Assembly: GCA_011033025.1 (NCBI GenBank)
Contig: WFMF01000467.1
Span: 62,001 to 126,000 of the forward strand
Length of the DNA: 64,000 bases
Source of the DNA: Beroe forskalii
Taxonomy: Eukaryota; Ctenophora; Nuda; Beroida; Beroidae
Direction of reading: 5' to 3'
Shown: positions 4,531-62,563 of the stretch, one piece after another
How the letters are laid out: the number at the start of each line of letters is the position of its first letter
Position numbering within the stretch: position 1 is the stretch's first letter
Translations under genes and position numbers: made by a program
The notes under the pieces: generated by a model
Database searches by the model: none
Told to the model about the DNA's origin: nothing
Seen by the model: the letters and a program-made list of their open reading frames with translations, nothing else

Positions 4531-7500
4531 GGCTGTGTGAGGAGAGCACTAAGAGATACTTCCTATTCAGGCTGTGTGAGGAGAGCACTAAGATTTCAGG
4601 CTGTGTGTGGGAGAGCACTAAGAGATACTTCCTATTCAGGCTGTGTGAGGGAGAGCACTAAGAGATACTTCCTATTCAGGCTGTGTGAGGGAGAGCACTA
4701 AGAGATACTTCCTATTCAGGCTGTGTGAGGGAGAGCACTAAGAGATGCTTCCTATTCAGGCTGTGTGAGGGAGAGCACTAAGAGATACTTCCTATTCAGG
4801 CTGTGTGGGGAGGCACTTAAAGAGATACTTCCTATTCAGGCTGTGTGAGGGAGAGCACTAAGAGATACTTCCTATTCAGGCTGTGTGGGGAAGCACTAGA
4901 GATACTTCCTATTCAGGCTGTGGTAAGAATACTTCCTATTCAGGCTGTGTGAGGGAGAGCACTAAGAGATACTTCCCTATTCAGGCTGTGTGAGGGAGAG
5001 CACTAAGGCTGTGTGAGGAGAGTACTAAGAGATACTTCCTATTCAGGCTGTGTGAGGGAGAGCACTCCTATTCAGGCTGTGTGAGGGAGAGATACTAAGA
5101 GGGAGATACTTCCTATTCAGGCTGTGTGAGGGAGAGCACTAAGAGATACTTCCTATTCAGGCTGTGTGAGGGAGAGCACTAAGAGATACTTCCTATTCAG
5201 GCTGTGTGAGGGAGAGCACTAAGAGATACTTCCTATTCAGGCTGTGTGAGGGAGAGTACTAAGAGATACTTCCTATTCAGGCTGTGTGAGGGAGAGCACT
5301 AAGAGATACTTCCTATTCAGGCTGTGTGAGGGAGAGCACTAAGAGATACTTCCTATTCAGGCTGTTGAGGGAGAGCACTAAGAGATACTTCCTATTCAGG
5401 CTGTGTGAGGGAGAGCACTAAGAGATACTTCCTATTCAGGCTGTGTGAGGGAGAGTACTAAGAGATACTTCCTATTCAGGCTGTGTGGGGAGAGTACTAA
5501 GAGATACTTCCTATTCAGGCTGTGTGAGGGAGAGCACTAAGAGACTTCCTATTCAGGCTTAGGCTGGCTGTGGGGGAGAGCACTAAGAGATACTTCCTAT
5601 TCAGGCTGTGTGAGGGAGAGCACTAAGAGATACTTCCTATTCAGGCTGTGTGAGGAGAGCACTAAGAGATACTTCCTATTCAGGCTGTGAGAGTACTAAG
5701 AGATACTTCCTATTCAGGCTGTGTGAGGGAGAGCACTAAGAGATACTTCCTATTCAGGCTGTGTGAGGGAGAGCACTAAGAGATACTTCCTATTCAGGCT
5801 GTGTGAGGAGAGCACTAAGAGATACTTCCTATTCAGGCTGTGTGAGGAGAGCACTAAGAGATACTTCCTATTCAGGCTGTGTGAGGGAGTACTAAGAGAT
5901 ACTTCCTATTCAGGCTGTGAGGGGAGAGCACTAAGAGATACTTCCTATTCAGGCTGTGTGAGGGAGAGCACTAAGAGGAGAGATACTAAGAGATACTTCC
6001 TATTCAGGCTGTGTGAGGGAGAGCACTAAGAGATACTTCCTATTCAGGCTGTGTGAGGAGAGCACTAAGAGATACTTCCTATTCAGGCTGTGAGGAGAGC
6101 ACTAAGAGATACTTCCTATTCAGGCTGTGTGAGGGAGAGCACTAAGAGATACTTCCTATTCAGGCTGTGTGAGGAGAGCACTAAGAGATACTTCCTATTC
6201 AGGCTGTGTGAGGAGAGCACTAAGAGATACTTCCTATTCAGGCTGTGTGAGGGAGAGCACTAAGAGATACTTCCTATTCAGGCTGTGTGAGGAGAGCACT
6301 AAGAGATACTTCCTATTCAGGCTGTGTGAGGGAGAGCACTAAGAGATACTTCCTATTCAGGCTGTGTGAGGGAGAGCACTAAGAGATACTTCCTATTCAG
6401 GCTGTGTGAGGGAGAGCACTAAGAGATATTCACGCTTCCTATTCAGGCTGTGTGAGGGAGAGCACTAAGAGATACTTCCTATTCTATTGAGGAGAGCACT
6501 AAGAGATACTCTGTGTGAGGGAGAAGCACTAAGAGATAAGATACTTCCTATTCAGGCTGTGTGAGGGAGAGCACTAAGAGATACTTCTATTCAGGCTACT
6601 TCCTATTCAGGCTGTGTGAGGGAGAGCACTAAGAGATACTTCCTATTCAGGCTGTGTGAGGAGAGCACTAAGAGATACTTCCTATTCAGGCTGTGTGAGG
6701 GAGAGTACTAAGAGATACTTCCTATCCAGGCTGTGTGAGGGAGAGCACTAAGAGATACTTCCTATTCAGGCTGTGTGAGGAGAGTACTAAGAGATACTTC
6801 CTATTCAGGCTGTGTGAGGGAGAGCACTAAGAGATACTTCCTATTCAGGCTGTGTGAGGGAGAGCACTAAGAGATACTTCCTATTCAGGCTGTGTGAGGG
6901 AGAGCACTAAGAGATACTTCCTATTCAGGCTGTGTGAGGGAGAGCACTAAGAGATACTTCCTATTCAGGCACTAAGAGATACTTCCTATTCAGGCTGTGA
7001 GGGCACTAAGAGATACTTCCTATTCAGGCTGTGTGAGGGAGAGCACTAAGAGATACTTCCTATTCAGGCTGTGTGAGGGAGAGTACTAAGAGATACTTCC
7101 TATTCAGGCTGTGTGAGGGAGAGTACTAAGAGATAGATACTTCCTATTCAGGCTGTGTGAGGGAGAGCACTAAGAGATACTTCCTATTCAGGCTGTGTGA
7201 GGGAGAGCACTAAGAGATACTTCCTATTCAGGCTGTGTGAGGGAGAGCACTAAGAGATACTTCCTATTCAGGCTGTGTGAGGAGAGTACTAAGAGATACT
7301 TCCTATTCAGGCTGTGTGAGGAGAGTACTAAGAGATACTTCCTATTCAGGCTGTGTGAGGGAGAGCACTAAGAGATACTTCCTATTCAGGCTGTGTGAGG
7401 GAGTCTAAGAGATAGGCCTATTCAGGGAGGACTAACTAAGAGATACTTCCTATTCAGGCTGTGTGAGGGAGAGCACTAAGAGATACTTCCTATTCAGGCT

Positions 7501-8129
7501 GTGTGAGGGAGAGTACTAAGAGATACTTCCTATTCAGGCTGTGTGAGGGAGAGCACTAAGAGATACTTCCTATTCAGGCTGTGTGAGGGAGAGCACTAAG
7601 AGATACTTCCTATTCAGGCTGTGTGAGGGAGAGTACTAAGAGATACTTCCTATTCAGGCTGTGTGAGGGAGAGCACTAAGAGATACTTCCTATTCAGGCT
7701 GTGTGAGGGAGAGCACTAAGAGATACTTCCTATTCAGGCTGTGTGAGGGAGAGCACTAAGAGATACTTCCTATTCAGGCTGTGTGGGGAGAGCACTAAGA
7801 GATACTTCCTATTCAGGCTGTGTGAGGGAGAGCACTAAGAGATACTTCCTATTCAGGCTGTGTGAGGGAGAGCACTAAGAGATACTTCCTATCCAGGCTG
7901 TGTGAGGGAGAGCACTAAGAGATACTTCCTATTCAGGCTGTGTGAGGGAGAGCACTAAGAGATACTTCCTATTCAGGCTGTGTGAGGGAGAGCACTAAGA
8001 GATACTTCCTATTCAGGCTGTGTGAGGAGAGCACTAAGAGATACTTCCTATTCAGGCTGTGTGAGGGAGAGCACTAAGAGATACTTCCTATTCAGGCTGT
8101 GTGAGGGAGAGTACTAAGAGATACTTCCT
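4531..8129 (+). repeat. 40-bp minisatellite built from the start of an SVOP-like exon (~90 units)
   Basis: The unit is GCTGTGTGAGGGAGAGCACT followed by AAGAGATACTTCCTATTCAG. Units vary by small deletions (GAGGG/GAGG), C/T changes (GCACT/GTACT) and a few scrambled copies near 6420-6550, 6960 and 7395-7440. The first 39 bases of the unit match the first 39 bases of the intact TM8 exon of the minus-strand SVOP-like gene (exon start 20614). The final CTATTCAG resembles a 3' splice site formed at each unit junction. The last unit runs directly into the rest of that exon at 8130. Unit length is not a multiple of three, so most short open frames across the array are meaningless. Confidence 0.92.
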
Positions 8130-8197
8130 CCTAGTGCAGTACACCTCCAGGAAAGATGCCTTCATCCACGTAGCCTTCTACATCACCTTTATAAACG
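8096..8197 (+). pseudogene. Duplicated SVOP-like TM8 exon with a 54-base deletion (left arm)
   Basis: This is the left-arm copy of the exon at 20459-20614. It begins in the last minisatellite unit (VRESTKRYF) and ends LLVQYTSRKDAFIHVAFYIT, followed by FING, at the donor G|GTACGT. Compared with the right-arm copy it lacks 54 bases, exactly 18 codons, covering most of TM8. The frame is therefore preserved but the membrane helix is lost. The retained bases after the deletion match the right-arm exon exactly over about 65 nt. Whether it is transcribed is unknown. Confidence 0.8.
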
Positions 8198-8391
8198 GTA
8201 CGTGAACCTTAGCTGTTTTACGGATCTAGCTGCCTTGCAGATACCTTGTGATGTTTTGCTCACTTATATCTAGGTGAAAGTTGCGTATATCATGTCACCT
8301 TCAGTCAAACCAATTTGAAATTTCGGTCATTTGAGACGCTTAAGTTTACTAAATTTTATGTTCGTCCAGCTCACTCGGTGTCATTTTGCAG

Positions 8392-8507
8392 GGTTGCTCT
8401 TTGCAATTTGTAAGTTTACTGGCGGAGTTTGGGTGCTTGTCTTCGCGACTTGTCTAGCGTTCAACACGGCCATAGGAGCAGTTTACTCCATTTCCTGGCT
8501 TTACATG
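8392..8507 (+). pseudogene. Duplicated SVOP-like TM9-TM10 exon (left arm)
   Basis: A 116-base exon lies between TTTTGCAG and ATG|GTTTGT and encodes LLFAICKFTGGVWVLVFATC and then LAFNTAIGAVYSISWLYM, two hydrophobic helices. It differs from the right-arm exon (20149-20264) at four positions, all synonymous (TTT/TTC, ACT/ACG, ATA/ATT, ATT/ATC). Flanking intron sequence is also nearly identical between the arms. It is listed as a pseudogene piece because the remaining exons of the gene are absent from this arm. Confidence 0.85.
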
Positions 8508-8700
8508 GTTTGTTTAACGTGTTTCTCAATTCTATGATGGTTAACTGAATTTAAACTTCGTATGGATCCGACACATACACTATACAGTTATAATAAAGTT
8601 ATGATGGATCAGACTGATAATCTGATATAAATGACTACGATCCTGTTAGATAAATGGGTGTTCAATTTGACGTCAGTTACAAAAGTAAAACTGGAATAGT

Positions 8701-9171
8701 ATTACACCAGCCACCACGTAATCCCTTGTTACCCCCTCAGATAGAGTACCACACCACATAATCCCCTGGTATCATCCACAGATAGAGTAACACCCCATTA
8801 AATCCCCTGGTACCCCCTCGGCCCTCAGATAGATTACTACCCCACGTAATCCCCTGGTATCCTTGAAGATAGATAACTCCTGCATTTATTCCCCTGGTAT
8901 TCCCCTCAGATAGAGTACTGCCCCATTTAATCATTAATCCCCTGGTATCCCCTCAGATGGAGTATTCCCCACGTAATCCCCTGGTTTCCCCCTCAGATAG
9001 AGTACTACCCCACTTCATCCCCTGGTATCCCTTCAGATAGAGTACCACCCCACGTAATCCCCTGGTATCCCCTCAGATAGAGTACTACCCCACTTTATCC
9101 CCTGGTATCCCCTCAGAAAGAGAACTACCCCACTTTATCCCCTGGTATCATCCACAGATAGAGTGCTATCA
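8701..9171 (+). repeat. 40-bp splice-acceptor minisatellite, left arm, part 1 (~11 units)
   Basis: The unit reads TATCCCCTCAG|ATAGAGTACTACCCCACTTTATCCCCTGG in plus orientation, where the bar marks the 3' splice site of the SVOP-like TM11 exon. Each unit therefore holds ~23 bases of intron end and ~17 bases of exon start. The array is continuous with part 2 apart from a transposon inserted at 9180-10641. Confidence 0.9.
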
Positions 9172-9179
9172 CAAGTAAT

Positions 9180-10641
9180 CTTACCTTCCAATAGTGGTCA
9201 GCCTCGTCAGCAGTGCTGACGGGGAAAAATTTTGGTCAAATAGGGGATTTTCAGTCAGTGACTCTCTTTGTGCGCGTAGCACTCAAAGCAAAAAGCTGGG
9301 GAAGTCTGTAGTTTGAGATTTTCAAGGAGGAATTCAGTTTTGGTAGGATATTTGACAGATGGGACATGAATATACAAATATTGAAACTGGGGCAGCCTGG
9401 GAGTTTAGAGGCCTTTAGATTGGTTCTGGGGTAGGAAAGGTGGGGCTTCAAGATTGGGATTGGGGTTGAGAAATTGGGGCTTCAAGATTTGGATTGGGGT
9501 AGGAAAATTAGGGCTTCAAGATTGGGGCTGAACTGTGGTAGGAAAAGTGGGGTTTTACGATTGGGATAGGAAAATGGGGCTTCAAGATTGTAGCCAAAGT
9601 AGGACTTCAAGATTGGGATAGCTCAATCCCAATTTGAAGTCCCACTTTTGCTACAATCTTTAAGGTAAGAACAAGGAAAAGTACTGCTTCATTGTAGGGC
9701 CTGCTTGTCATTTCAAAAACAGTTCATTACAGATTTCCTGTGCCATGCACAATTTTGGCTACAGTTAGTGTAAGAATCTTTATGAGGCGACAATTTCATC
9801 TACTTAAAACGTCTGGCTACTGGGGGCTGCCGCCCCCAGACCCCTGCTTGTCGTTTGAAATACAATTCGTTTCAGGCACCTTGAAATTTCGGCTACATTT
9901 AGGGTAGGAATCATTATGAGCCGACAATTTCATCGACTCAGAACGTCTGGCTTCTGGGGCTGCCCCCGACCCCTGCTCGTCATTTGAAAAACTGTTTGCT
10001 TTAGATTTTCTGTGTCAGTTACCTTGAAATTTCAACTCAAGTTTGGGTAAGAATCATTACGAGGCGACAATTTCATCTACTTAGAACGTCTGGCTTCTGG
10101 GGGCTGCCGCCCCCAGACCCCTGCTTGTCATTAGAACTAAAGTTCCTTACAGATTTCCTGTGCAAAGCACCTCGAAATTTCGACTACAGGTAGGGCAAAT
10201 TTCATTATGAGGCGACAATTTCATCTACTTAGAACGTCTAGCTTCTGGGGGCGGTAGCCCCCAGACCTCTGCTTGTCATTTGAAATACAGTTCGTTGCAG
10301 ATTTACTGTGCCAGGCACCTTGAAATTTCGACTCCATTTAGGATAGGGGTCATTACGAAGCGACGATTTCATCTACTCAGAATTTCTGGTTTCTGGGGGC
10401 TGCCCCTACTTGGTTTAAAGGTATAATTTCTTTTAAGAGATGCAGTCTATTAGAACCGTGGCAAAAATGGTTGTAAAAATTCGTTTGCTAAGCGAGCAGG
10501 CCTGAGAAAGTATAAAATTGGTCTTTAAGGCCGTGCAGCGGCGCTGATTGAGCTGTGTTATTAACTTCCGACCGAAATTTTGGCAAACTGGGGAATTTTC
10601 AAAAGCTGCTGACGGGGGAATTTCCCTTCCTGGAAGGTAAG
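9180..10641. mobile_element. Non-autonomous DNA transposon with perfect 8-bp target duplication
   Basis: The element begins CTTACCTTCCA and ends TGGAAGGTAAG, an 11-base terminal inverted repeat. It is flanked by CAAGTAAT at 9172-9179 and 10642-10649. It interrupts the acceptor minisatellite; the matching array in the right arm has no insertion, which gives an empty site. An 8-bp duplication fits hAT- or P-type elements, although the CTTACC terminus does not point to a specific family. No transposase is visible. Inside are degenerate repeats of CTTCAAGATTGGGATAGG (9430-9660) and four to five ~190-base units holding the hairpin CTGGGGGCTGCCGCCCCCAGA (about 9690-10420). Confidence 0.85.
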
Positions 10642-10649
10642 CAAGTAAT

Positions 10650-11764
10650 CCCCTGGTATCCCCCTCAGATAGAGTACTACCCCACTTTATCCCCTGGTAC
10701 CCCCTCAGATAGAGTACTACCCCACGTAATCCCCTGGTATCCTTGAAGATAGATAACTCCTGCATTTAATCCCCTGGTATTCCCCTCAGATAGAGTACTG
10801 CCCCATTTAATCCCCTTGTATCCCCTCAGATAGAGTACCACCCCATATAATCATTAATCCCCTGGTATCCCCTCAGATGGAGTATTCCCCACGTAATCCC
10901 CTGGTTTCCCCCTCAGATAGAGTACCACCCCATTTAATCCCCTGGTATCCCCTCAGATAGAGTACTACCCCACTTTATCCCCTGGTATCCCCTCAGATAG
11001 AGTACTACCCCACTTTATCCCCTGGTATCCCCTCAGATAGAGTACTACCCCACTTTATCCCCTGGTATCCCCTCAGATAGAGTACTACCGCACTTGATCC
11101 CCTGGTATCCCCTCAGATAGAGTACTAGCCCACTTTATCCCCTGGTATCCCCTCAGATAGAGTACTACCCCATTTAATCCCCTGGTATCCCCTTCAGATA
11201 GAGTAGTAGAGTACCACCCATATAATCCCCTGGTATCCCCTCAGATAGAGTACCACCCCACGTAATCCCTTGGTATCCTCTCAGATAGAGTACCACCCCA
11301 TATAATCCCCTGGTATCCCCTCAGATAGAGTACTACCCCACTTTATCCCCTGTATCCTCAGATAGAGTACTACCCCACTTTATCCCTGGTATCCCTCAGA
11401 TAGAGTACTACTGCACTTGATCCCTGGTATCCCCTCAGATAGAGTAATAGCCCACTTTATCCCCTGGTATCCCCTGATAGAGTACTACCCCATTTAACTC
11501 CTGGTATCCCTTCAGATAGAGTAGTAGAGTACCACCCATATAATCCCTGGTATCCCCTCAGATAGAGTACCACCCCACGTAATCCCTTGGTATCCTCTCA
11601 GATAGAGTACCACCCCATATAATCCCCTGGTAACCCCCTCAGTTAGAGTACCACCCCATTAAATCCCCTGGTATCCCCCTCAGATAGAGTACCACCCCAT
11701 TTAATCCCCTGGTATCCCCTCAGATAGAGTACTACCCCATTTAATCCCCTGGTATCCCCCTCAG
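10650..11764 (+). repeat. 40-bp splice-acceptor minisatellite, left arm, part 2 (~28 units)
   Basis: This has the same unit as part 1 and ends exactly at the 3' splice site of the TM11 exon (CCCCCTCAG|ATAGAGTACTACC at 11765). Nearly every unit keeps a pyrimidine-rich tract, CAG and the first exon bases, so dozens of near-identical candidate acceptors precede the exon. Some units carry one-base differences (CCCCTCAG/CCCCCTCAG, TTTATCC/TTTAATCC) or the variant AGATAGAGTAGTAGAGTACC. Confidence 0.92.
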
Positions 11765-11898
11765 ATAGAGTACTACCCCACCTCTCTGCGCTGTACTGGA
11801 GTAGGATTCCTGGCCGGGGTGGGGCAGCTCGGTAACGCGCTCGGCACCCTCCTCAGCAGGTTCACGCTCAGATACTCCATCGGCGGAGTTTACGGCAG
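11765..11898 (+). pseudogene. Duplicated SVOP-like TM11 exon (left arm)
   Basis: This 134-base exon encodes IEYYPTSLRCTGVGFLAGVG and then QLGNALGTLLSRFTLRYS and IGGVYGR. It has the E-x-(Y/F)-P-T-x-x-R signature that precedes TM11 in SVOP/SV2/SLC22 proteins. The donor is CAG|GTGAGG. One synonymous difference (AGC/AGT) separates it from the right-arm exon 18965-19098. The next exon of the real gene (TM12 and tail) is missing here; the next acceptor downstream belongs to HELLS, and splicing to it would be out of the HELLS frame. Confidence 0.85.
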
Positions 11899-12155: not shown

Positions 12156-12837
12156 AACCCACAGTGTGACTCATACACACAAGATCGAGCCCATAGAATC
12201 GGGCAGCGTAACACAGATGGTATCGGTTCCTTGCTAAGAACACGATGGATCAGAAGATCGTAGAGAGGGGGATCAGCAAAAGATTCTTGGAGAAGATGGT
12301 CATTCACAAGGGTGGGAAATATCTTCTTTGTATTATTGATATTAAGAATGAGCCTTCAAAATTTTATTTAAATGTCACGAAACAGCAGTAAAAGTCAGAG
12401 TTCATATCTCGGAAACCCGTCAGGTAAATTCAAGCGCCTGGACGCCGCTGGTAGCGACCATGTCACTGAGGAGGACCTTAAGGAGCTCTTTGACAGTGAC
12501 GCTCTTAAGGCTCTCAAATCAGGTAATCTCTTCGATATTACGTGTAATCAATATTTTCACTTGTAAATGATGTTTGAAGCAAAGAGCTAATAAGGCTCAA
12601 AGGTCGAAGTGTTTGTTTCACTGGTTCACTGAATGTTTAACTTCCTTGCAGTAATTATATTGTTTGACTGACTTTCTGAATGTTTAACTTCCTTGCAGTC
12701 ATGACATTGTTTCAGACCACCAGCCTCAAGACATCCTATCTGATGCTGATTTGGCAGCTCTGCTTGACAGAGAGAATCCTCTCCCCTCTAGCAATGCTTA
12801 CACTGTAGTCGAGAGCGTTGCGACATCGCAATATTGA
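12156..12837 (+). pseudogene. HELLS: HELLS/LSH-type SNF2 helicase, last three exons (frame-broken)
   Basis: Exon A (12156-12311) encodes NPQCDSYTQDRAHRIGQRNT, which contains SNF2 helicase motif VI. After a one-base loss at about 12207-12212 it continues YRFLAKNTMDQKIVERGISK and RFLEKMVIHK, closely like the C-terminus of HELLS. Exon B (12424-12522) encodes KFKRLDAAGSDHVTEEDLKE, then LFDSDALKALKS. Exon C (12699-12837) encodes SDHQPQDILSDADLAALLDR, then ENPLPSSNAYTVVESVATSQY and a stop; ISDKDLELLLDR is the equivalent in vertebrate HELLS. The B-to-C junction is also off by one base. HELLS remodels nucleosomes to support DNA methylation. Upstream helicase exons are not seen; 7.6 kb of duplicated SVOP-like sequence lies directly upstream. 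It may be a relic, or an intact gene carrying consensus errors and a long intron whose 5' part lies outside the window. Confidence 0.82.
12631..12716 (+). repeat. Two-copy tandem duplication of the HELLS last-exon acceptor
   Basis: GAATGTTTAACTTCCTTGCAG occurs at 12631 and again at 12678, a 47-base period. Each copy is followed by related sequence: TAATTATATTGTTTGAC in copy 1 and TCATGACATTGTTTCAGAC in copy 2, which is the true exon start. The duplicated unit therefore spans the 3' splice site plus about 19 exon bases. Confidence 0.88.
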
Positions 12838-15386: not shown

Positions 15387-15389
15387 TAC

Positions 15390-18494: not shown

Positions 18495-21400
18495 CTGAAA
18501 CAGTGAATAAGTTGAGAGTCAGCAATATTTCGATTCGTCACTACTATTAAGTTCCTTAGGGGGTGTATTTATGAAGGTTGTAATTGGGGGATTTTTCGGG
18601 AAAATCCCCATATTTTTACAGACCATGACAGTTCAAAATGACGTCATTATCATATGTTCACTAGAGTAATGACTTGAGATTTGAGAAAGATCCCCAAATT
18701 ACAACCTACCAAATTTGTAAACACCAAAATTTTACTCCACATAAATACACCTCCTAAGGTATGTGTTAAACTAAGCAGACCATGGACATGGGAAAAGGAC
18801 AAATATCTGATTATCTGAAAAAGCACAGCAGTAATTATCATGTGCCAATCGGAATGACTGTCACAAAACAGCTCCACAATCCACATGCGATACAGTGCTG
18901 TTGTCATGACAGCCACACAGCACGTTGTACTTGTTGTCATGGCAACATAGCATATGCTCCTCACCTGCCGTAAACTCCGCCGATGGAGTATCTGAGCGTG
19001 AACCTACTGAGGAGGGTGCCGAGCGCGTTACCGAGCTGCCCCACCCCGGCCAGGAATCCTACTCCAGTACAGCGCAGAGAGGTGGGGTAGTACTCTATCT
19101 GAGGGGGATACCAGGGGATTAAATGGGGAGTACTCTATCTGAGGGGGATACCAGGGGATTAAATGGGGAGTACTCTATCTGAGGGGGATACCAGGGGATT
19201 AAATGGGGAGTACTCTACCTGATGGGAGACCAGGGGATTAAATGGGGAGTACTCTATCTGAGGGGGATACCAGGGGATTACTCTATCTGAGGGGATACCA
19301 GGGGATTAATCTATCTGAGCTGGGGATACCAGATACCAGGGGATTACGTGGGGTAATACTCTATCTGAGGGGGATACCAGGGAATTAAATGGGTGGTACT
19401 ATATCTGAGGGGATACCAGGGGATTGAATGGGGAGTACTCTATCTGAGGGGGATACCAGGGGATTACTCTATCTGAAGGGGATACCAGGGGATTACTCTA
19501 TCTGAGGGGATACCAGGGGATTAATCTATCTGAGCTGGGGATACCAGGGGATTACGTGGGGTAATACTCTATCTGAGGGGATACCAGGGGATTAAATGGG
19601 GAGTACTCTATCTGAGGGGGATACCAGGGGATTACTCTATCTGAGGGGATACCAGGGGATTATATGGGGTGGTATTCTATCTGAAGGGGATACCTGGGGA
19701 TTAAATGGTGTGGAACTCTATCTGAGGGGATACCAGGGGATTAAATGGGGAGTACTCTATCTGAGGGGGATACCAGGGGATTACGTGGGGTAGTACTCTA
19801 TCTGAGGGGGATACCAGGGGATTACTCTATCTGAGGGGATACCAGGGGATCAAATGGGGTGGTACTCTATCTGAGGGGATACCAGGGGATTAAATGGGGC
19901 AGTACTCTATCTGAGGGGAATACCAGGGGATTACGTGGTGGCTGGTGTAATACTATTCCAGTTTGTTTTATTTTTGTAACTGACGTCAAATTGAACACCC
20001 ATTTATCTAACAGGATCGTAGTCATTTATCTCAGATTATCAGTCTGATCCATCATAACTTTATTATAACTGTATAGTGTATGTGTCGGATCCATACGAAG
20101 TTTAAATTCAGTTAACCATCATAGAATTGAGAAATACGTTAAACAAACCATGTAAAGCCAGGAGATGGAGTAAACTGCTCCAATGGCCGTGTTGAACGCT
20201 AGACAAGTCGCGAAGACAAGCACCCAAACTCCGCCCGTAAACTTACAAATTGCGAAGAGCAACCCTGCAAAATGACATTGAGTGAGCTGGACGAACATAA
20301 AATTCAGTAAACTTAAGCGTCTCAAATGACCGAAATTTCAAATTTGTTTGACTGAAAGTGACATGATATACGCAACTTTCACCTAAATATTAGTGAGCAA
20401 AACATCACAAGGTACCAGCAAGGCAGCTAGATCCGTAAAACAGCTAAGGTTCACGTACCGTTTATAAAGGTGATGTAGAAGGCTACGTGGATGAAGGCAT
20501 CTTTCCTGGAGGTGTACTGCACTAGGAGGATGCCAATAACGAAGCCAAGCACGTAGAGGAGGTTCCTCACGGAGTTGAATAGGAAGTATCTCTTAGTGCT
20601 CTCCCTCACACAGCCTGGACAGTGGGTTTTGTGGTGGCCAAAGATTCCTCATCATCTGAATCACTTTCAAATGGTTCGTTAACTTTTCAATTTCATAGCC
20701 CTGATTACTGCAGCTTATAATGATCAAGAATGAAGGTCATTTTTATTGCGACGAATGTGATTATACAGCCAAAATTTAGACACATAACTCTTCCCTCCCG
20801 ACTCACGCGTTGTCTTATCGTCGTCGTAGGACCTGGCGAACTCGCGCAGGCTTTTACACGTGGAGATATCCGTGCAGGAGGCCGGGTTGTCAAGGGTTGC
20901 CGTGGCGTTGACGCAGTGGTTGTCATGACAACAGGTCCGCCCCTGGGAGTCGAGGGGGTTGCAAACTTCCCCATCTGCACTGCATGTCAGATCGTCGCTC
21001 CACTTCACTGGGTTAGGCGGGGGGTTAGGTGGGGGTTGGTCGGCCATTGGGGGTGGTTAGGTCATCACTCCACTTCACTGAGTATGGTGGGCGTTAGTCA
21101 AGGGGGGTATAGTGGGGGGGTTAGGTCGTCACTCCACTTCACTGATGTAGGTGGGCGTTAGTCAAGGGGGGGTGTTGGTGGGCCGTACGGGGGGGTGGTT
21201 AGGTCGCCACTCCACTTCACTGAGTATGGTGGGCGTTAGTCAAGGGGGGGGTATAGGGGGGGTGGTTAGGTCGCCACTCCACTTCACTGAGTTAGGTGGA
21301 GGTCAGTCAAGGGGGGGGTATGTGGGGGGGGGGTTAGGTCGCCACTCCACTTCACTGAGTTAGGTGGGGGTTGGTCAAGGGGGGGGGGGTATGGTGGGGG

Positions 21401-24400
21401 TTTAGGTCATCACTCCACTTCACTGGGTTTGGTGGGGATCAGTTTAGGGGGGTTAGGTGAGAATATTTCACTTCAGGGGGAAAGATTAGGGTCTGGGTAA
21501 GGATTAGGGTTAGAGTTAATAACATTGGGTTATCAATAACATCAGGATTATGGTTCATTGGTTACAGTCAGAACTGGAGATGAAGTTTCGTGAGGTGAAA
21601 TGTGGTGAGGTTAAATTTCAGGCTCCGCAAAACTTAATTTTGAATCAAAATTAAGTTTAGGGAAGCCCAACCATAAGTAGCTAATAAGGAAGCGAAAGAA
21701 TGAATTTAAGAGTACAATAAATCGCAGATTTCCCTAAAGTGAGGCTCATTAGTTTAGTTTGTGAAATAGTTAATTATGGTCATGGAAGTGGTTTTGAGAG
21801 GCTGCATATACCTGAGGAGGTGAGGTCTACCCCGCAATTGCACTGGTTAGTGAGGATCTCCTCAGTCAGGACATGGGAGGCGAAGTACTGAACGTTACAC
21901 ACGACCATGAAGGTAGCCAGCAGGATCGTCGTTCCGCGGTGAGACGTGGCAATCAGTACACGAGTTAATACGCAAGTAGTGATTGTATTGGATTCACTTT
22001 CTCGTTTTCATATGTAAAGGCAATAAGGAAATTTCGAACAAAACCCAGTGGAAATGCAATCAATAGTAAGGGAACTATCATCAAATGCCGGGGTCCTCTG
22101 TGAAAAAATTCGTTCTTAAGGTTTTGATGCTCCAATCGACTCCAATAGGTGTCTAGAGTCACCAAAAAAATTTATTCAATTTTTGGAGTTGCGGAAACCC
22201 AGGGTGACCACGCCCTTTTTGACCGTGGGAATTTTGAGGAAAATCACTAAAATTTAGCTGAATGGCAACTAAGGCATGATTATACTCTAAACCTAGGTTT
22301 TTGATACGAGAAATCCATTGCAACCATTATCTAGACTTCAAATCGCATATTTTGGCCATAATTGGCCACGCCCAGTTTTTGTCATGGCCATTTTGGCTAA
22401 AAATCTCAAAATTTTGACAAGACCATACCATATCAAGATTATACTCTAAACCTACGTTTTTTGGTGCGAGAAATCCATTGAAGCCACTATCTAGACGTCA
22501 ACTCGCATATTTTGGTCATTTCTGACCACGCCCAGTTTTTGTCAAGGCCTTTTTGGCCAAAAATCTCGAAATTTTGATTCGACCATACCATAACATGATT
22601 ATACTCTAAACCTATGTTTTTTCTTTTTTTGATACGAGAAATCGATTAAAGCCACTATCTAAGCGCCAACTCGCATATTTTGGCCACTACTGACCACGCC
22701 CAACTTTGCCAAAATCTTGAAATCTTGATAAGACCGTACCATACCATGATTATAGTCTAAGTCCATGTTTTTCGATGCGAGAAATCGATAGAAGCCCGTA
22801 TCTAGACTCCAAATCGCATATTAAAGCAAAAATTGGTCTCGCCCGCTTTTTACAGCCATTTTGCTAAAAAAATCTGGTAATTACTTAATTAGGGATCGTT
22901 CACATATTACAGAATCACATTGGGGGAGGGGGGAGGTTTCCGAAGGATTACGTTTCATGTTATTGTAACAAATACAACAACTATAAACTTGATTACGAGG
23001 GGAGGGGGATAAAATCGGCCAAAAATTGATTACGTAGTATGACGTGAACGATCCCTTATAACAATTGCGATTTAGAAGGCCATAGCATAAAACATACTCT
23101 AAACGACACGATGAACTGTAAAAGTGTAAAGTCTGACACCCAAAAGTCTGACATTGGCGAGCTTTTGAATGTCTGTTGGCTTCAACCTGTTGAATACTGG
23201 AGGTTCGTAATAAGCCGTCCACCTATTCCTTTCTTAACTTTACTGCAAACTCCAAGGCCAGCCCCTCAAAAGGTCAAAGTATCAGATGAAGTTGCCTTCT
23301 GGTACTTTCATCTTTTCATATGTTTCATTACGGGTGATACCTAACTAAAAAATGGGACTTTTTTGTAACGGTCACTGCAGCCGAACTTGATTGGAAACGT
23401 TTTGAGCTCTGCCTGCCTTATAAGCCTATAGAAACCGAATACTATCGCCCTCACATCCTCAAATTTGATATTATAAAGCAGTGTTGTAAATTAGTGTTGA
23501 TATTATTCAGAAGTTCACTTGATATATTCTGATGATGCATACTCAAGTGCATCGTCAAGGTTTGTGTGAGGCCAAGTCAAGACTGAAGAGTGCGAGTGGT
23601 GTCAAAGGTTAATTGTTGTCAAAGGTAGAGTGTTGTCAAACTCAAGAGAACACTGATGCAGAGAAAAGAGTGTTGCCAAAGGTTGAGTGGTTTCAAAAAG
23701 TCAAGGGTAGAATGCTGTCAAGGAGAAATTGGGAAGACCAATGTCAAGGAAAAGTTGGTATCAAGGTAAGAGTTCTCTCAAAGCTTCAAAGAAAGCGTGC
23801 TGTTACGAATAAATTGCTATCAAGGGAAGAGTGCTGTGAAATGTGGAGTGTTGTCAAATGTATACTGCTGTCAAGGGTACAGTGCCATCAACTTGACTGC
23901 ACTCTACCCTTGACTTAATCTAAGGAAGAGTGATGTCTTGCAGTCTAGAGTAGATTTCTGTCAAGGATAGAGTGCTTCAAAGGGTAAAGTGATGTATAGC
24001 ATCGAAGTGAATGGTGAAGTGTGGAGTGGAGCCAAGGGAAGAGTCCTGTCAAGGATAGAGTGATGTCATGGGTAAAGTGATGTCAGGACTAGTAGAGTGA
24101 TGTCAAGGGTAAACTGTAAAGTGGTGTCATACCCCGTAGAGTGGTGTCTAGGGATGTGTGCTATCAAGGGTAGCTTGGTGTAAAGGTTGAAGTGAGCTGT
24201 GAAGGATATAGTGCTGTCAAGGGAAAGTGCTGTCAAAATTAAGTGCTGTAAAAGCCAAGCGTAGAATGCTATCAAAGGTTCAAGACTAAAATGTGCGATT
24301 GAATAAGTTATTTGTCTGCAGTCAAGTAACGAAAGCTGTTATCGTGAAGTGCAGTCAAAGGTCGATTTTTGTCAAGGATAAACAGTAAAACAGGTTGATG

Positions 24401-39267: not shown

Positions 39268-39309
39268 CTCCAAGAATTCCGACTTCCGGGCAGCCACCCA
39301 GTGTTGGAG
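39268..39309 (-). CDS. Possible upstream 42-base exon of the SVOP-like gene
   Basis: Between CCACAG and GAG|GTCTGT lies a 42-base segment that in the phase needed by exon 1 encodes PTLGGCPEVGILG, joining to DALENVMEEPP. It begins in the last unit of the 25-bp minisatellite to its right, the same arrangement as at other exons of this gene. The coding status is not proven. Confidence 0.35.
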
Positions 39310-40752
39310 CTGTGGTAGCCACCCTGTGTTGGAGCTGTGGTAGCCACCTAGTGTTTGAGCTGTGGCAGCCACCCAGTGTTAGAGCTGTGGCAGCCACCCA
39401 GTGTTAGGGCTGTGGTAGCCACCCAGTGTTGGAGCTGTGGTAGCCTACCAGTGTTGGAGCTGTGGTAGCCACCCAGTGTTTGAGCTGTGGTAGCCACCCA
39501 GTGTTGGAGCTGTGGTAGCCACACAGTGTTGGAGCTGTGGTAGCCACCCAGTGTTGCAGCTGTGGCAGCCACCCAGTGTTAGAGCTTTGGCAGCCACCCA
39601 GTGTTGGAGCTGTGGTAGCCACCCAGTGTTGGAGCTGTGGCAGCCACCCAGTGTTAGAGCTTTGGCAGCCACCCAGTGTTGGAGCTGTGGTAGCCACCCA
39701 GTGTTGGGGCTGTGGTAGCCACCCAGTGTTGGAGCTGTGGCAGCCACCCAGTGTTAGAGCTGTGGTAGCCACCCAGTGTTGGAGCTGTGGTAGCCACCCA
39801 GTGTTGAAGCTGTGGCAGCCACCCAGTGTTAGAGCTTTGGCAGCCACCCAGTGTTGGAGCTGTGGTAGCCACCCAGTGTTGGAGCTGTGGCAGCCACCCA
39901 GTGTTGGAGCTGTGGTAGCCACCCAGTGTTGGAGCTGTGGTAGCCACCCAGTGCTAGAGCTGTGGCAGCCACCCAGTGTTGAAGCTGTGGTAGCCACCCA
40001 GTGTTGGAGCTTTGGCAGCCACCCAGTGTTGGAGCTGTGGTAGCCACCCAGTGTTGGAGCTGTGGTAGCCACCCAGTGTTGGAGCTGTGGTAGCCACCCA
40101 GTGCTAGAGCTGTGGCAGCCACCCAGTGTTGAAGCTGTGGTAGCCACCCAGTGTTGGAGCTGTGGCAGCCAACCAGTGTTGGAGCTGTGGCAGCCACCCA
40201 GTGTTGGAGCTGTGGCAGCCACCCAGTGTTAGAGCTGTGGTAACCACCCAGTGTTGGAGCTGTGGCAGCCACCCAGTGTTGGAGCTGTGGCAGCCACCCA
40301 GTGTTAGAGCTTTGGCAGCCACCCAGTGTTGGAGCTGTGGCAGCCACCCAGTGTTAGAGCTTTGGCAGCCACCCAGTGTTGGAGCTGTGGTAGCCACCCA
40401 GTGTTGGAGCTGTGGCAGCCACCCAGTGTTAGAGCTTTGGCAGCCACCCAGTGTTGGAGCTGTGGTAGCCACCCAGTGTTTGAGCTGTGGTAGCCACCCA
40501 GTGTTGGAGCTGTGGTAGCCACACAGTGTTGGAGCTGTGGTAGCCACCCAGTGTTGCAGCTGTGGCAGCCACCCAGTGTTGGAGCTGTGGTAGCCACCCA
40601 GTGTTAGAGCTGTGGCAGCCACCCAGTGTTGGAGCTGTGGTAGCCACACAGTGTTGGAGCTGTGGCTGCCACCCAGTGTTTGAGCTGTGGTAGCCACCCA
40701 GTGTTGGAGCTGTGGTAGCCACCCAGTGTTAGAGCTGTGGCAGCCACCCAGT
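39290..40752. repeat. 25-bp minisatellite (~58 units)
   Basis: The unit is CAGCCACCCAGTGTTGGAGC followed by TGTGG, with variable positions (CAGCC/TAGCC, TTGGAG/TTAGAG, CTGTGG/CTTTGG). Three units make 75 bases, so all frames stay open and give spurious 25-residue-repeat proteins on both strands. Each unit reads CCACAG|CTCCAACACTGGGTGGC on the minus strand. Confidence 0.93.
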
Positions 40753-43664
40753 GCTATTAGAGCTCGGTCTGTAGATGGAAAAGCTTTCCACTCCAGAATA
40801 TATACAACAGAACGGCTACAAATTCCTCTGACATCAAATGAACTTTAATTTAAATAGCTCCATGACGATATACTAGGTGATAAGTAGACTCTAAAAGCAT
40901 ATACGTATTATGTAATCACCGTACTATCGTATATTCAGTTTTTAATATCTATAATGACATCGGAAATACTCGTACGCACACAAAAAGGTACATCAATCAA
41001 ACGATATAGATAAAGTTCATACGCAAAGAATGCTAGGGTGTGGAATAGAGACCTCATATGAAACCATAGCAGTTGTTTAAATATTTCGGGGAGATGTGTG
41101 TTGGATGATTGTTGCTTAGCGTAATACGTGGGGAACAAATCGATTATTGCTAAGTGAATACCAGATGTTTCTCCTTGATTGTTGCTCGGCGGTTATCACT
41201 CGTCATGATATTTCATAATTTCAGCCTGTCACACTGACACAACAACACGGAAGAGACCTTCAGAGAAGTGAATGACTATTGCAGGGCAAACGATAATAAT
41301 AATTATACCTATATTTGTCTACCCCTTTATAAGACAGGAATCAGACAAATCGTTTACGTGACAGCACGACGCGTAGCAGCTGAAAGACATTAATGAGGCT
41401 CCCAGTTCCAGGCGGAATTTGGCAAGAAATGCGTTGCTGAGAACGCGCGATAAAATTAAAGGGTGGACAACGCTTTAAACTAATGGGCTTGTGGCAGCTG
41501 GGCGTTAAAATTGAAGAATGAGCTATCGAGGCAATGAATTGATGGAATGCATAATGCCGAGTAAAAACGATTTAAAAAGAAGTGTTGATGTCGGTGAGTG
41601 TGCATGCTATAATATACTGGACGTTTGGACCCGCAGACGCAGTGTAGACGACATGACGTCACTACTTCACTGTTACGAGGGAGGGTTAAAACGTCACTCC
41701 TAGCAGCTGAAAGCAGTGCGTTATGGAATTCATGTTCAATGTTAGCACGCACTGGGCACGCGGGGAGTTGATTGACTGTCAGACGAATTTTATTTATCCA
41801 TCTGTTTTTTACTTATTGACAGTATTTAGAATATTTTATGTCCACCCAAACCGGTATTAATAAATTGCAATAAAAACACAAGTGAGAACTTGACATCAGC
41901 TGCAGTTGAAGGCCTCAGCGAATACCTTTCTTATGTCTCTATGTAACGAAAAGAGAGTACATTCCAATTTTCACGCAATTTCAAAATGCCGGGTTGATCA
42001 CAAAATGTCAAATTAAGTCATAAATATTTATTCGCGTTCTTACAAAATGTCACACACACATGGATGCAATATGCATTAATATACGGTTACGATTATCAAT
42101 TTGAAGCCATATAATCAGCAAAACGATAATTACTCCCATAAGTCAGAGTAACGCAATTGCAAATATTTCATTTTCAAGTAAGTACTCATAAGCTCATAGC
42201 TTCATAGGTAAAACTACGCCAATAAGTTTGATTTAGCAAACAAAAATATTACATATTTTCAGTAAGGGCACTATCTTCAGTTTCCCTGCTAAGGCCAGGG
42301 AATCATTAAAAGACTAAGAGAATAAGTTTCCTACTAAATTAATGAATCCAAAGAACGTGTGATGACGTCACACGTTAAGTTTTTTGAGAAATGCCTCACA
42401 CACTACCCCGACTACAGCCCCCCCCCCCCCCCCCGATTACACCCATCGGCTCCTGCTCCCCAAGACTGTTAAACAATTTTTTCACGCATTTAACAACCCT
42501 GCCGCTGTCAAGGTGATTTAGATAAGGAAAATTGCGACCCAATTGGTACAAGCGATACGGGGCAAATCCCCAAGTCTGTTAGTTTTTCAAAATAAAAATT
42601 TTTATCGACTTTCGATTGAAATGAAATAAAATAACTGGAAATCAAGGTATCTATTTTGTTTTCCCGAAAGAAAGGAGGGCAAGGAAAGTAACAATTAAAA
42701 ATAAATTGCAACTCAAATATCAATAGATTGTGTACGGATCATTGAAAGGGGACCATTAATTTAGTAAAGTAGTAATTTCATGGTATTGTGAGCTAGTGGT
42801 GTGGATTGACCAATAAAAATCAAGGATCCACCTATTCTAATGCATAACCCGTATCAAAGAGTCCTAATTCCTGATGCACACAATTAACGGCCGCTCTTAA
42901 GAATAAAATGCATGATTTAATGAGAAACACCGTAGGTTTGTAATTGTATATTACAACACACAAAGTGCTAATTAAATGAACATCTAATGGGTCCATCATC
43001 ATGTGTATTATGGTGAGCCATGAATGGAAAATGTAACAAACGTCCGGAAGGAAGTTATGAACAGCAATCCTGATAACAAAAATTATATGCAAATGATGTG
43101 ATAACAACAGACTACCTGTAATTTTATATTCGACAATTATTACAGAAATCTATTACACCATTTCATCACTGCGCTCCCACTAAATCCCTGTCGTTTGTGT
43201 GACTCATGGCACACACTGAGTTCCCGGAGCGCAGGTACAATTAATTAATCATCATACAGCGCCACATGGCATCGGCAGGCACGTGCGACCACTAGTGAGT
43301 TTTAGCTTACAGGTGTCACCTAGATTAGCACACGATTTTTCTCACCTCCCTACCATCGCGGTCAGGTATATACGATCACGAAACTGCAGAGGCAAAAAGG
43401 AGGAACTTTACAAACACTTCACACACACACGGCACCAGAACCCAGCTACTCAGATCATCCCAAAATAGCTCAGCAATTACCAATGACTTTATAAATCACG
43501 ATGATGGTTTACCAGTAAAAATCATACCAGAAGCTACGCATACTATGTAATTATATAAATTTGAAATTTAAAATATAATTTCGCTGATAAACTGCAGAAA
43601 GGTAATGACTCTTCACACTTCAAGGGATATAGAGTTACAGTAATTGCAGTGCGAGTTTCGGCAG
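40753..43664. other. Intergenic, no gene seen; poly-C tract
   Basis: A run of about 17 C lies at 42418-42434. TGACGTCA octamers are at 41654 and 42363. No coding sequence is supported. Confidence 0.5.
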
Positions 43665-57499: not shown

Positions 57500-57940
57500 G
57501 GTAAGACGACCCCTATTCATAGTGCGGCATAGAGAGGGTATGAGATATCGCATCAGCGTGACAGGGAGGGGCAATGAGATGTCGCATCAGCTCGGCATGG
57601 AGGAGGTGAGATGTCGCATCAGCGCGAGATGGAGAGGGCATGAGATATCGCATAAGATTAAGCGCGAGAGGGAGGGGGGATCAGATGTGGCATTAGCGCC
57701 AGAGGGAGGGGGAAATGGGGAATGTGATATCGCATCAGCGCGACATGGAAGGGGGCATGAGATGTCGCATCAGCCTGACAGGGAGGGGGAATGAGATGTC
57801 GCATCAGCGCGAGAGGGAGGGTATGAGATATCGCATCAGCGCGGCAGGGAGGGGGTATGAGATGTCGCATCAGCGAGACAGGGAGGGGGATGAAACGTCG
57901 CATCAGCGCGACAGGGAGAGGATATGCGATATCGCACTAA
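57500..57940. repeat. ~33-bp minisatellite (~13 units)
   Basis: The unit is GAGATGTCGCATCAGCGCGA then CAGGGAGGGGGAAT, with variants (GATATCGCATCAG, GGCATGGAGGAG). The open frames across it on both strands are repeat artefacts. Confidence 0.85.
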
Positions 57941-60299: not shown

Positions 60300-62563
60300 A
60301 TGTCTCGACTGGATCCAATAGATTTCCACGTGGTGTGTGCCCCTGATGGTTGTTCCTTCGAAATCCAGCCCCGAAACAGCAGCAGTGGATTCCAACCCAT
60401 CAAGGTGGAGTCCTTCCACCTGAGCTGTCAGTCGGATGTTGGGCCCTGCCGTGCGGGCCGGGCCTGGGAAAACAAGAAATACGGAGGAATCATCATCTAC
60501 TCCTTGGGAAAACTTGCAGACAAAGTTCGAGAAACCAAAGGACTGAGGATAAAACCGGGTTATGTCTACATCCGAGATTCTAGGAATATGTCGTGTACGA
60601 CAGGAGATGAGGGGATGGTCCATGGCTGTCTGGCCCGTGTCTTGCTGGGCTTCCAGCCAGGGGAGTTAGTCAAGGCTGGGGGACTGCTTAGCGGCTTCTC
60701 AATTGACGCTAACGGAACCCCGACGTTCAATTCGTCGGCAACGAACGCCGCATGTGGGGATTACAAGTGCACGAACGACAGGAAGATGGGGCTCCCGGAA
60801 CAGAGAGCGTTGCGAAATGCGGTACGAATGTGGAGGAGCGGGGAAGCGCGCGGACAGAACATTCCTGTGGAACGCCTCGCGATCAGTTGCATTCCTACGA
60901 TCAGGTACATTCCTACTACCAGGTACATTCCTACGATCAGGTACATTCCTACAATCAGGTACATTCCTACGATCAGGTACATTCCTACGATCAGGTACAT
61001 TCCTACGATCAGGTACATTCCTACGATCAGGTACATTCCTACGATCAGGTACATTCCTACGATCAGGTACATTCCTACGATCAGGTACATTCCTACGATC
61101 AGGTACATTCCTACGATCAGGTACATTCCTACGATCAGGTACATTCCTACGATCAGGTACATTCCTACGATCAGGTACATTACTACGATCAGGTACATTC
61201 CTACGATCAGGTACATTCCTACGATCAGGTACATTCCTACGATCAGGTACATTCCTACGATCAGGTACATTCCTACGATCAGGTACATTCCTACGATCAG
61301 GTACATTCCTACGATCAGGTACATTCCTACGATCAGGTACATTCCTACTACCAGGAAAATTCCTACGATCAGGTACATTCCTACGATCAGGTACATTCCT
61401 ACGATCAGGTACATTCCTACTACCAGGTACATTCCTACGATCAGGTACATTCCTACGATCTGTTACATTCCTACGATCAGGTACATTCCTACGATCAGGT
61501 TCATTCTTACTATTATTATTTACACATTATTTACACACTATTCACACAGATTATTTACAAACTTCATTTCCACATTATTTGCAGTTGCATAGAAGATCCA
61601 GACCGCCCTTCATCCTCATCCGGAGGCCAGGTCTCCGGTTCCAGTGCAATAAGCGAGATAACCACACTCCTAGAGTACAATGACATGGTCCAGAAAGCGG
61701 CGATAAACACCCCCAACAGACTGGTAGTGGTGCAGTTCCATGCGGTTTGGTGTGGGCCCTGTCAAGAGTGAGTACTTGCAGATACCCTCTGAAGTTTTCA
61801 TTGTTTCTGATCACAAACTTACATGATCGGGTTAGACCCTCACTCTTCGTGCTTAAGGCCTATGGGCTATGTTTTATTTATTTTTTTATGTATTTCAATA
61901 TCATTCCAGCATCACCCCGGTAGTCGAGGAACTAGCACGCAATGAACAACAAGTGAGTTTCTACAAAGTGAATGTGGATGAAGCAGACGAGGTCACAGCG
62001 AAACTCAGAGTCAAGTAAGTCCTCTGAATTTACAAATTTAACGATCTTACTATCTTAGGTCTACTGCAGGAATGAATTAGAAAGCTACCAAACAAATAGA
62101 CTACCTTAGGAGGTGTATTTATTTGGGATAAAATTTCGGTTTTTCAAATTTTGGTAGGTTGAAAATATGGGGATTTTTCAAGTCATTACTCTTGTTAACA
62201 TATGATAATGACGTCATTTCGAAATTTCATGGTGGGTGAAAAAATGGGGATTTTTCTGAAAAATCCCCAAATTACAACTTTTATAAATAAACCTCCTAAG
62301 GTATATAGGTAAAACCTGCCAAGAAAGAGGCTTGTTCAGTAACACTTCGATTGCCTTTTTAATAACAATCCATTTTCAACCAACCCAATGGGTCGGTTAA
62401 CACTGGTAAGGGTCAGGAGAGAGATAAATTCAAAATTTTGTGACTTTTAGGGGTTAGGCAAAATGTCCAGTTAGGCTAAATGATCTATAACCGGATTGTA
62501 CAAACTTCTCCCAGGTCAATGCCAACCTTCCTGTTCATCAAAGGAGGGGAAATTATAGAGCTT
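60300..62563 (+). CDS. Thioredoxin-fold protein with a novel N-terminal domain (4 exons seen)
   Basis: Exon 1 (60300 to 60904 or a later repeat donor) encodes about 200 residues I do not recognise: MSRLDPIDFHVVCAPDGCSF, then a Cys-containing globular region ending VERLAIS. Exon 2 (61585-61767) begins CIEDPDRPSSSSGGQVSGSS, a linker, then LVVVQFHAVWCGPCQ, the thioredoxin strand and redox motif CGPC. Exon 3 (61910-62014) encodes ITPVVEELARNEQQVSFYKV and NVDEADEVTAKLRVK. Exon 4 starts at 62515 with SMPTFLFIKGGEIIEL, including the cis-Pro of the fold. All phases agree (2, 2, 2). Thioredoxins reduce disulfides. After GEIIEL the sequence switches to an antisense reverse transcriptase fragment, so the last strand and helix are missing unless supplied beyond the window. 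Confidence 0.8.
60887..61508 (+). repeat. 18-bp minisatellite carrying the exon 1 donor (~34 units)
   Basis: The unit ATTCCTACGATCAGGTAC is repeated almost perfectly; variants are CTACTACCAG (four times), one ACTACG, one GAAAATTCC and one CTGTTAC. Every standard unit holds CAG|GTAC, a fair 5' splice site, and also AG, a potential acceptor. Being 18 bases long, any donor choice keeps the reading frame and adds six residues per unit (IPTIRY). All three plus-strand frames stay open across the array. Confidence 0.94.
62104..62301. mobile_element. Mariner-type MITE, copy C
   Basis: CCTTAGGAGGTGTATTTATT at the left and TTTATAAATAAACCTCCTAA then GG at the right, flanked by TA on each side. It lies in intron 3 of the thioredoxin-fold gene and is the best-preserved copy. 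Confidence 0.9.

Follow-up and report, generated by a model that had tools for sequence, protein, structure and literature searches.

Minisatellites built from exon-intron boundaries in the ctenophore Beroe forskalii are probably of the mirage type

A 64,000-nucleotide stretch of Beroe forskalii DNA (contig WFMF01000467.1; hereafter the window) carries tandem arrays whose repeat unit combines exon and intron sequence at three splice junctions, namely a TM11 acceptor, a Cys-rich exon acceptor, and a thioredoxin exon 1 donor. The arrays are real and were born locally: the TM8, TM11, and thioredoxin units are absent elsewhere in 216 Mb. We suggest that they are probably mirage-type minisatellites, that is, the tolerated products of neutral tandem duplication, with the exon-proximal copy being the one that is spliced. 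A preference of the arrays for splice sites over other DNA is not supported, although there is room for a modest bias.

Arrays at exon boundaries in the window

The original prediction was that five independent exon boundaries in the window bear a repeat made from the splice junction itself. Three of them do (TM11, Cys-rich, and thioredoxin), at the following positions:

8714..9164, + strand: TM11-acceptor array of gene copy A, 5' portion, separated from the rest by other repeats (TRF)
10646..11781, + strand: TM11-acceptor array, copy A (TRF); exon start 11765
11765..11898, + strand: TM11 exon, copy A (IEYYPTSLRCTGVGFLAG...), a predicted exon with a weak SLC22/MFS alignment
19083..19937, - strand: TM11-acceptor array, copy B (TRF); exon 19098 to 18965
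20807..21007, - strand: Cys-rich exon (VKWSDDLTCSADGEVCNPLDSQGRTCC...), a predicted exon starting at 21007
21008..21470, - strand: Cys-rich acceptor array (TRF), with six copies of a unit of about 68 bp upstream of the exon
60300..60904, + strand: exon 1 of the thioredoxin gene (start MSRLDPIDFHVV)
60880..61510, + strand: donor array, 18-bp unit GATCAG|GTACATTCCTAC, about 35 copies, first donor after 60904 (TRF)
61585-61767 and 61910-62014, + strand: exons 2 and 3 of the thioredoxin gene, with thioredoxin homology; exon 4 start 62515

The TM11 unit (~40 bp, ...cccctggtatcccctcag|ATAGAGTACTACCCCAC) consists of the acceptor and the exon tip, and its exon-side homology covers as much as 17 nt of the exon (IEYYPTSLRCTGVG). 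The SLC22/MFS alignment is weak but gap-free across this junction (SWLYM|IEYYPT; PDB E=0.027), and all 32 genome matches to the unit, at up to 2 mismatches, lie on this contig. The arrays in copies A and B are one array copied by inverted duplication and are therefore counted once. Similarly, the Cys-rich unit joins the acceptor to as much as 16 nt of the exon tip, and the phases of this exon agree with those of the adjacent exons by hand arithmetic on the coordinates. The thioredoxin unit is made of the exon 1 end plus the donor, and 34 of 34 genome matches (at most 2 mismatches) fall on this contig. Exon 1 alone has no Pfam match; the joined exons match Pfam PF00085 (E=3.1e-21) as well as PDB thioredoxins.

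The fourth repeat was placed at a TM8 junction (4531-8129), where the following features are found:

4566..8129, + strand: TM8-tip array, copy A, ~40-bp unit, about 89 copies (TRF and sequence reading)
20459..20614, - strand: intact TM8 exon, copy B, with the array unit present once

This repeat is indeed derived from the exon: the unit corresponds to the ~39 nt at the start of the TM8 exon, with no intron part, and all 56 whole-genome matches at up to 1 mismatch lie on this contig (55 in the array and one in the intact copy-B exon). Copy number thus goes from 1 (copy B, at 20614) to ~89 (copy A) between gene copies whose flanks outside the arrays show 97.2% identity across 569 bases and 94.7% across 304. 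The array is located at the broken 5' end of copy A, a partial, inverted gene copy. Since the TM8 exon of copy A has lost 54 nt by deletion and blastn searches of the window and its flanks did not recover the two exons upstream of TM8, the array is not at a demonstrably working junction.

The fifth repeat, assigned to the last acceptor of 'HELLS' (12631-12716), and a possible sixth (39290-40752) did not hold up as junction arrays:

12630..12715, + strand: 'HELLS' intronic duplication, two copies of a ~47-bp unit, 47 bp apart
39292..40753, no strand assigned: 25-bp array, 58 copies (TRF)

An acceptor at 12716 is phase-consistent and gives the more protein-like reading (KS-DHQPQDILSDADLAALLDR). 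With the exon starting there, the 'HELLS' repeat stops at the acceptor without an exon tip, and we rejected it as junction-spanning; the alternative acceptor at 12699 also leaves the frame open but is unlikely. Neither the gene name nor the exon found support in Pfam or PDB, with queries that took the frame of 12715 in a rougher join and, separately, the frame of the 12699 acceptor. The flanks of the array at 39292-40753 show no exon or splice context.

Further cases elsewhere in the genome

Another 250 kb, from other contigs, yielded seven more junction-spanning arrays, three of them in recognisable genes and the other four at predicted exons. These seven, kept from 41 candidates (window included) plus 38 more, are a lower bound. 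The recognisable cases are an acceptor array at exon 3 of CHMP4 (PDB CHMP4B, E=6.6e-17), a donor array in PLOD (PDB PLOD3, E=1.5e-16), and an acceptor array in an MFS transporter (Pfam Sugar_tr, E=1.2e-24), and each of their units contains both exon and intron sequence. Several units have an AG|GT core; in CHMP4, AAG|GTTC stands at the end of exon 2 and CAG|GTTC at the start of exon 3. Locus L031 has two copies, with neither offset divisible by three. We did not count the arrays at a Kelch exon (L032) and at CHMP4 exon 2, which adjoin the acceptor without exon sequence, nor a diverged copy of the CHMP4 exon-2 donor that is visible by eye but scored 'none' in the scan. A fixed exon-tip length of ~17 nt was also rejected: the longest exon-side homology ranged from 8 to 28 nt over ten acceptor rows, 'HELLS' included.

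These additional cases bear on whether the arrays are artefacts, either repeat assembly errors or wrong exon calls. An artefact would suit the TM8 array, which sits where an inverted partial copy breaks off, and the 'HELLS' case, which vanishes under the phase-consistent acceptor. However, the CHMP4, PLOD, and MFS-transporter arrays are on other contigs in recognisable genes, and the short cases with two or three copies are independent of array assembly. We therefore regard an artefact as extremely improbable. As for the proposal of a general process acting on many junctions and genes, the recurrence of junction-spanning arrays in many genes is supported, with three genes and four predicted exons in 250 kb besides the window; preferential seeding on junctions is not.

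Frequency of arrays at splice junctions

TRF arrays make up 20.7% of the window. Three of its 24 junctions (TM11 A, TM11 B, and the thioredoxin donor) lie inside arrays, compared with 4.96 expected from circular shifts (P=0.69; P=0.63-0.79 across eight settings), so the earlier argument that a chance association is unlikely fails within the window. The circular-shift null may overstate the chance expectation, as it lets arrays land on exons, which selection would not allow. Among 86 sampled array units, acceptor motifs were not enriched, and a slight excess of donor motifs (z=2.4) was equalled by the reversed control; coding sequence was not enriched in the flanks of sampled arrays. In six sampled genes, an intron-side copy accompanied 2 of 21 acceptors and none of 23 donors, as against 281 of 5262 acceptor-like (5.3%) and 118 of 1170 donor-like (10.1%) arbitrary sites. 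Both acceptor matches come from genes already known to carry a repeat. Eight loci had been modelled for this comparison, from which PLOD (found via its repeat) and a short-chain dehydrogenase (unclear boundaries) were left out, and a few model exons were dropped or set by hand.

Other comparisons were more mixed. Window acceptors have an intron-side copy in 3 of 12 cases, above the 5.3% background (post hoc, uncorrected P=0.023); without the duplicated gene copy the count is 2 of 9 (P=0.08), and placing the 'HELLS' junction at 12699 rather than at 12716 turns 3/12 into 4/12. In an ab initio exon-at-array test, the null 95th percentile was exceeded at 5 of 178 acceptor ends and at 10 of 178 donor ends; the scorer has low power, with known window exons at 12-17 where the null 90th percentiles are 16.7 and 13.5. 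The exon models are themselves ab initio in part. For predicted exons, up-only copies outnumbered down-only copies at scores of 8-25 (18/821 vs 6/821), and the reverse held at scores above 25 (1/326 vs 4/326).

The main competing explanation is that transcription-coupled breaks, R-loops, or AG|GT microhomology start duplication preferentially at junctions. The post hoc excess at window acceptors, the recurrence in unrelated genes, and the AG|GT core of several units would all be expected under such a bias, but the window permutation, the motif content of array units, the lack of coding enrichment in array flanks, and the counts in the six sampled genes speak against it, and we consider it unlikely. 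The number of junction arrays fits a minisatellite-dense genome with no splice-site preference. We find it rather doubtful that a genome-wide process in ctenophores starts tandem duplications at the boundaries of exons and introns, leaving thousands of junctions with growing arrays, some of which would lengthen introns, create introns through AG|GT units, or vary protein length by in-frame donor choice, as in the thioredoxin gene.

Usability of the splice-site copies and relation to lancelet mirages

Redundant splice sites had been proposed as one outcome of such arrays. For acceptors the copies themselves speak against it: none of 88 upstream acceptor copies would yield an open, in-frame product. 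The thioredoxin donors differ, as all 31 GT-bearing copies (of 33) would keep exon 1 open and in frame, and this array is the best functional candidate, since every donor would add six in-frame residues. The splice dinucleotide is also retained in 0.96-1.00 of copies in six arrays, compared with a mean of 0.80-0.95 at other positions. Nevertheless, the bases beside the dinucleotide are equally well kept, a stop-free 18-bp unit is open by construction, and the thioredoxin paralogue has only three units where this gene has ~35 (the three were read by eye; a scan at one position scored 'none'). Taken with the unproductive acceptors, these points make it very unlikely that the arrays function as redundant splice sites or as modulators of intron or protein length.

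We favour neutral duplication instead. A short tandem duplication would straddle an exon-intron boundary by chance, and the array would then grow and shrink as any minisatellite does. A duplication spanning an acceptor would leave one complete acceptor-plus-exon at the 3' end, and one spanning a donor would leave one complete exon-plus-donor at the 5' end. Given such an intact end copy, the gene would survive as long as splicing uses the exon-proximal copy and the remainder is treated as intron. We infer both the identity of the spliced copy and the neutrality of the process.

Junction-spanning minisatellites have been reported in amphioxus, as the original prediction stated; they are described as mirages in the cephalochordate genes Adh3, troponin C, globin BflGb6/BflGb9, and PGBD5, with a copy number that is unstable between alleles and somatically and with regular splicing undisturbed (PMC3087553; PMC3902484). 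The Beroe arrays share with them a boundary-spanning unit, at an acceptor or a donor, a variable copy number, and AG/GT kept in many copies. They differ from the mirages of these reports in their host, a ctenophore rather than a cephalochordate, which is a matter of distribution and not a defining trait, and in size, with about 35 units in the thioredoxin array vs 3 and 6 in two BflGb6 haplotypes. Amphioxus was rejected as the source of the window: COX1 from this assembly matches Beroe forskalii at 100% identity, and Gemin5 matches Mnemiopsis leidyi at 63%. The lancelet mirages also come with reports on splicing, whereas the Beroe arrays are known from DNA sequence alone. Array structure and large copy-number differences are shared with ordinary dispersed minisatellites and satellites; unlike these, the TM8, TM11, and thioredoxin units are each private to one locus and derive from the neighbouring exon. 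In the Rogers model, as cited in PMC3087553, introns are gained when an exon segment bearing AGGT is duplicated in tandem. Several Beroe units likewise carry AG|GT, so that a duplicate supplies both donor and acceptor; the model calls for an intron that lies between two copies of one exonic segment and is absent in relatives, and the observation in Beroe is of AG|GT cores.

Mirages were described in lancelet genes and put forward there as a possible source of new introns. Their presence in several comb jelly genes suggests that they are not peculiar to lancelets and arise instead as a by-product of a minisatellite- and intron-dense genome. The ctenophore lineage splits off at or close to the base of the animal tree. 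Beroe would be a second, independent system in which to study how introns are lengthened and gained through tandem duplication, and it offers two near-identical gene copies, with 1 and about 89 units, as a natural pair.

Arrays at the junctions of two genes

The assembly holding the window comprises 216 Mb in 1134 contigs. Its COX1 (contig C1134, translated with mitochondrial code 4) matches that of Beroe forskalii at 100% identity across 507 residues; together with the Gemin5 comparison given below, this assigns the genome to a ctenophore, very probably B. forskalii, rather than to an amphioxus. The genes discussed first are listed here, copies A and B being two copies of one transporter gene in opposite orientation.

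Transporter and thioredoxin-domain gene copies
In the window, minus strand: transporter gene copy B; weak MFS_1 (Pfam) and SLC22 (PDB) matches
In the window, plus strand: transporter gene copy A, inverted and partial, from TM8 to the last exon
Right end of the window: thioredoxin-domain gene, Pfam E=3.1e-21
L030 (outside the window, contig C544), ~7001-7677: thioredoxin exon 1 paralogue, inverted, partial, ~10 kb right of the window's gene

The transporter gene had been named SVOP-like. Copy B matches MFS_1 only weakly in a Pfam search (E=0.0036, under Pfam's cut-off) and SLC22 proteins weakly in a PDB search (best E=0.027), and the gene is therefore better read as SLC22/MFS-like. Outside the arrays, alignments of copies A and B show 97.2% identity across 569 bases and 94.7% across 304. 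The TM8 exon of copy A lacks 54 nt, and no copy-A counterpart of the two exons upstream of TM8 was found by blastn in the window or its flanks (10 kb and 7.7 kb).

Two predicted acceptor arrays of this gene were confirmed. First, the TM11 array has a unit of ~40 bp that joins a polypyrimidine tract and the AG to as much as 17 nt of exon, with 25 copies in copy A and 22 in copy B within ~1.6 kb upstream; a weak SLC22 alignment crosses the TM11 junction gap-free. Second, the Cys-rich acceptor array consists of six copies at a spacing of ~68 bp that include up to 16 nt of exon. The TM8 unit, also thought to be made from a junction, does derive from its exon, but it is purely exonic. Across the genome it has 55 close matches within the array, and one more at copy B's intact exon. 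Given 1 versus about 89 units in copies that are about 97% identical, array growth can be fast.

The predicted donor array of the thioredoxin-domain gene was upheld as well: an 18-bp unit is followed by 33 more copies. GT is present in 31 of these, and all 31 GT-bearing donors keep exon 1 open and in frame (window 60880-61510), so that donor choice would alter only the number of six-residue repeats. Judging from the sequence, the protein could thereby differ in length by six residues for each unit. Only three 18-bp units were read in the paralogue, where an identical CTTAAAACCAG string stands at the exon-1 end and at the acceptor, as if one had been copied onto the other.

At the gene called HELLS, an acceptor at 12716 suits the reading phase better than one at 12699, and with that choice the repeat ends at the acceptor rather than spanning it. 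A possible sixth site, the 25-bp array at 39292-40753, has flanks without splice context. Elsewhere in the window, a 51-bp array (27809-29969) holds ~42 copies that are 95-97% alike, its source sequence not being found, and tandem units of 148 and 160 bp (9873-10404, 22278-22702, and 24822-25309) appear to resemble parts of dispersed elements more than local minisatellites. Open frames at 2897-3817 and 62667-63122 resemble retroelement fragments.

Local origin and predicted splicing

We searched the genome for three units, tolerating two mismatches in those of TM11 and thioredoxin and one in that of TM8. Their respective 32, 34, and 56 matches all lie on the window's contig, at these genes (one of the 34 is the paralogue ~10 kb downstream), and the reversed control patterns gave 0 matches in the whole genome. 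Hence, these three arrays are locally born.

Tandem duplication across an acceptor would leave an intact acceptor and exon at the 3' end. In eight acceptor arrays, AG is kept in 88 of 90 upstream copies; 31 of these 88 have offsets divisible by three and 0 give an open frame into the exon, a count that includes the two related TM11 arrays (A and B) and uses model-based phases for predicted exons. Since no upstream copy would be productive, the acceptor directly at the exon should be the only one able to yield the protein, and its use would be expected to be under selection. In six arrays, 96-100% of copies retain the splice dinucleotide versus a mean of 80-95% at other positions; the adjoining bases are also kept, so this retention is no demonstration of special selection on the copies.

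Cases elsewhere and comparison with chance

We sampled 25 pieces of 10 kb (L009-L028 and L031-L035) from nine contigs, excluding the window's; they were chosen by position from contigs already listed and are not strictly random. A scan for intron-side splice-site copies gave 41 candidates in one list, which also covered the window, and 38 in another; seven cases outside the window were kept after sequence reading (250 kb sampled).

Cases outside the window
L011:3858: MFS-transporter acceptor, Pfam Sugar_tr E=1.2e-24
L013:3955: CHMP4 exon 3 acceptor, E=6.6e-17
L034:8993: PLOD donor, E=1.5e-16
L013:6759, L013:8464, L022:784, L031:3101: four predicted exons, no family match or family assigned

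At three to seven cases per 250 kb, the whole genome would hold a few thousand, with wide error.

In CHMP4, exon 2 ends AAG/GTTC and exon 3 starts CAG/GTTC. A 10-bp ATAACATGAC array of 221 copies (L013:627-2810) adjoins exon 2 without containing exon sequence, and the next intron holds a diverged copy of the exon-2 donor region (L013:2977-3092). Gemin5 (L017:4051-7365) reads as a single intronless open frame of 1105 codons; its identity is 63% to Mnemiopsis leidyi, with 99% of the length aligned, and ~30% to vertebrates.

The original prediction held a chance association to be unlikely, which our counts do not support. Arrays (score at least 100) cover 20.7% of the window versus 6.5% of the sample's initial 200 kb, and 1.5% to 25.7% of five later pieces. 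Reading frames and homology define 24 window junctions, of which 3 are inside arrays versus 4.96 expected from random circular shifts (P=0.69), a null that permits arrays on exons. Without copy A, the count is 2/18 versus 3.72 (P=0.73), and P ranges from 0.63 to 0.79 over eight settings. We also scored six sampled genes: CHMP4, the L011 transporter, an SH3/PDZ gene, a TPR gene, and two KLHL-like genes.

KLHL-like genes of the junction set (numerous small exons; identified by eye in the translations)
L032:4989-7607, minus strand
L033:2074-5328, plus strand

Intron-side copies were present at 2/21 acceptors and 0/23 donors, both matches being in CHMP4 and L011, genes already known to carry a copy. 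Among arbitrary splice-like sites in the sample, 281/5262 acceptor-like and 118/1170 donor-like sites have such a copy, as do 541/1936 AG sites in the window, arrays included. In the units of 86 of 89 sampled arrays (units >150 bp left out), acceptor motifs are not enriched (z=-2.3) and donor motifs are slightly enriched (z=2.4), with reversed units scoring equal; array flanks in the sample show no enrichment of coding sequence. Window acceptors carry copies in 3/12 cases versus a 5.3% background (uncorrected P=0.023), or 2/9 without the duplicate (P=0.08). Arrays may thus have a modest bias toward splice junctions. Present numbers lean against a general process acting on junctions.

Relation to known minisatellites

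No title or abstract opening among the matches listed, mostly from open-access literature, describes a junction-spanning minisatellite outside lancelets. The nearest of these matches reportedly concern tandem repeats inside duplicated human genes (PMC2812944) and, in a potato gene, an intron gained through tandem duplication (PMC4974935).

In the excerpted text on lancelets, junction-spanning minisatellites termed mirages occur in the Adh3 and globin genes, with splicing apparently undisturbed and somatic instability at Adh3 (PMC3087553); excerpts of a second paper add PGBD5 and cite troponin C (PMC3902484). The terms 'tandem repeat', 'minisatellite', and 'intron' are absent from the Beroe ovata genome paper (PMC11184263), and excerpts of the Hormiphora genome paper give 13% repeats by TRF and make no mention of junctions (PMC8527503). 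The junction-spanning minisatellites of Beroe forskalii are real and recurrent and, as far as the literature matches listed show, they extend a known kind to another phylum of animals.
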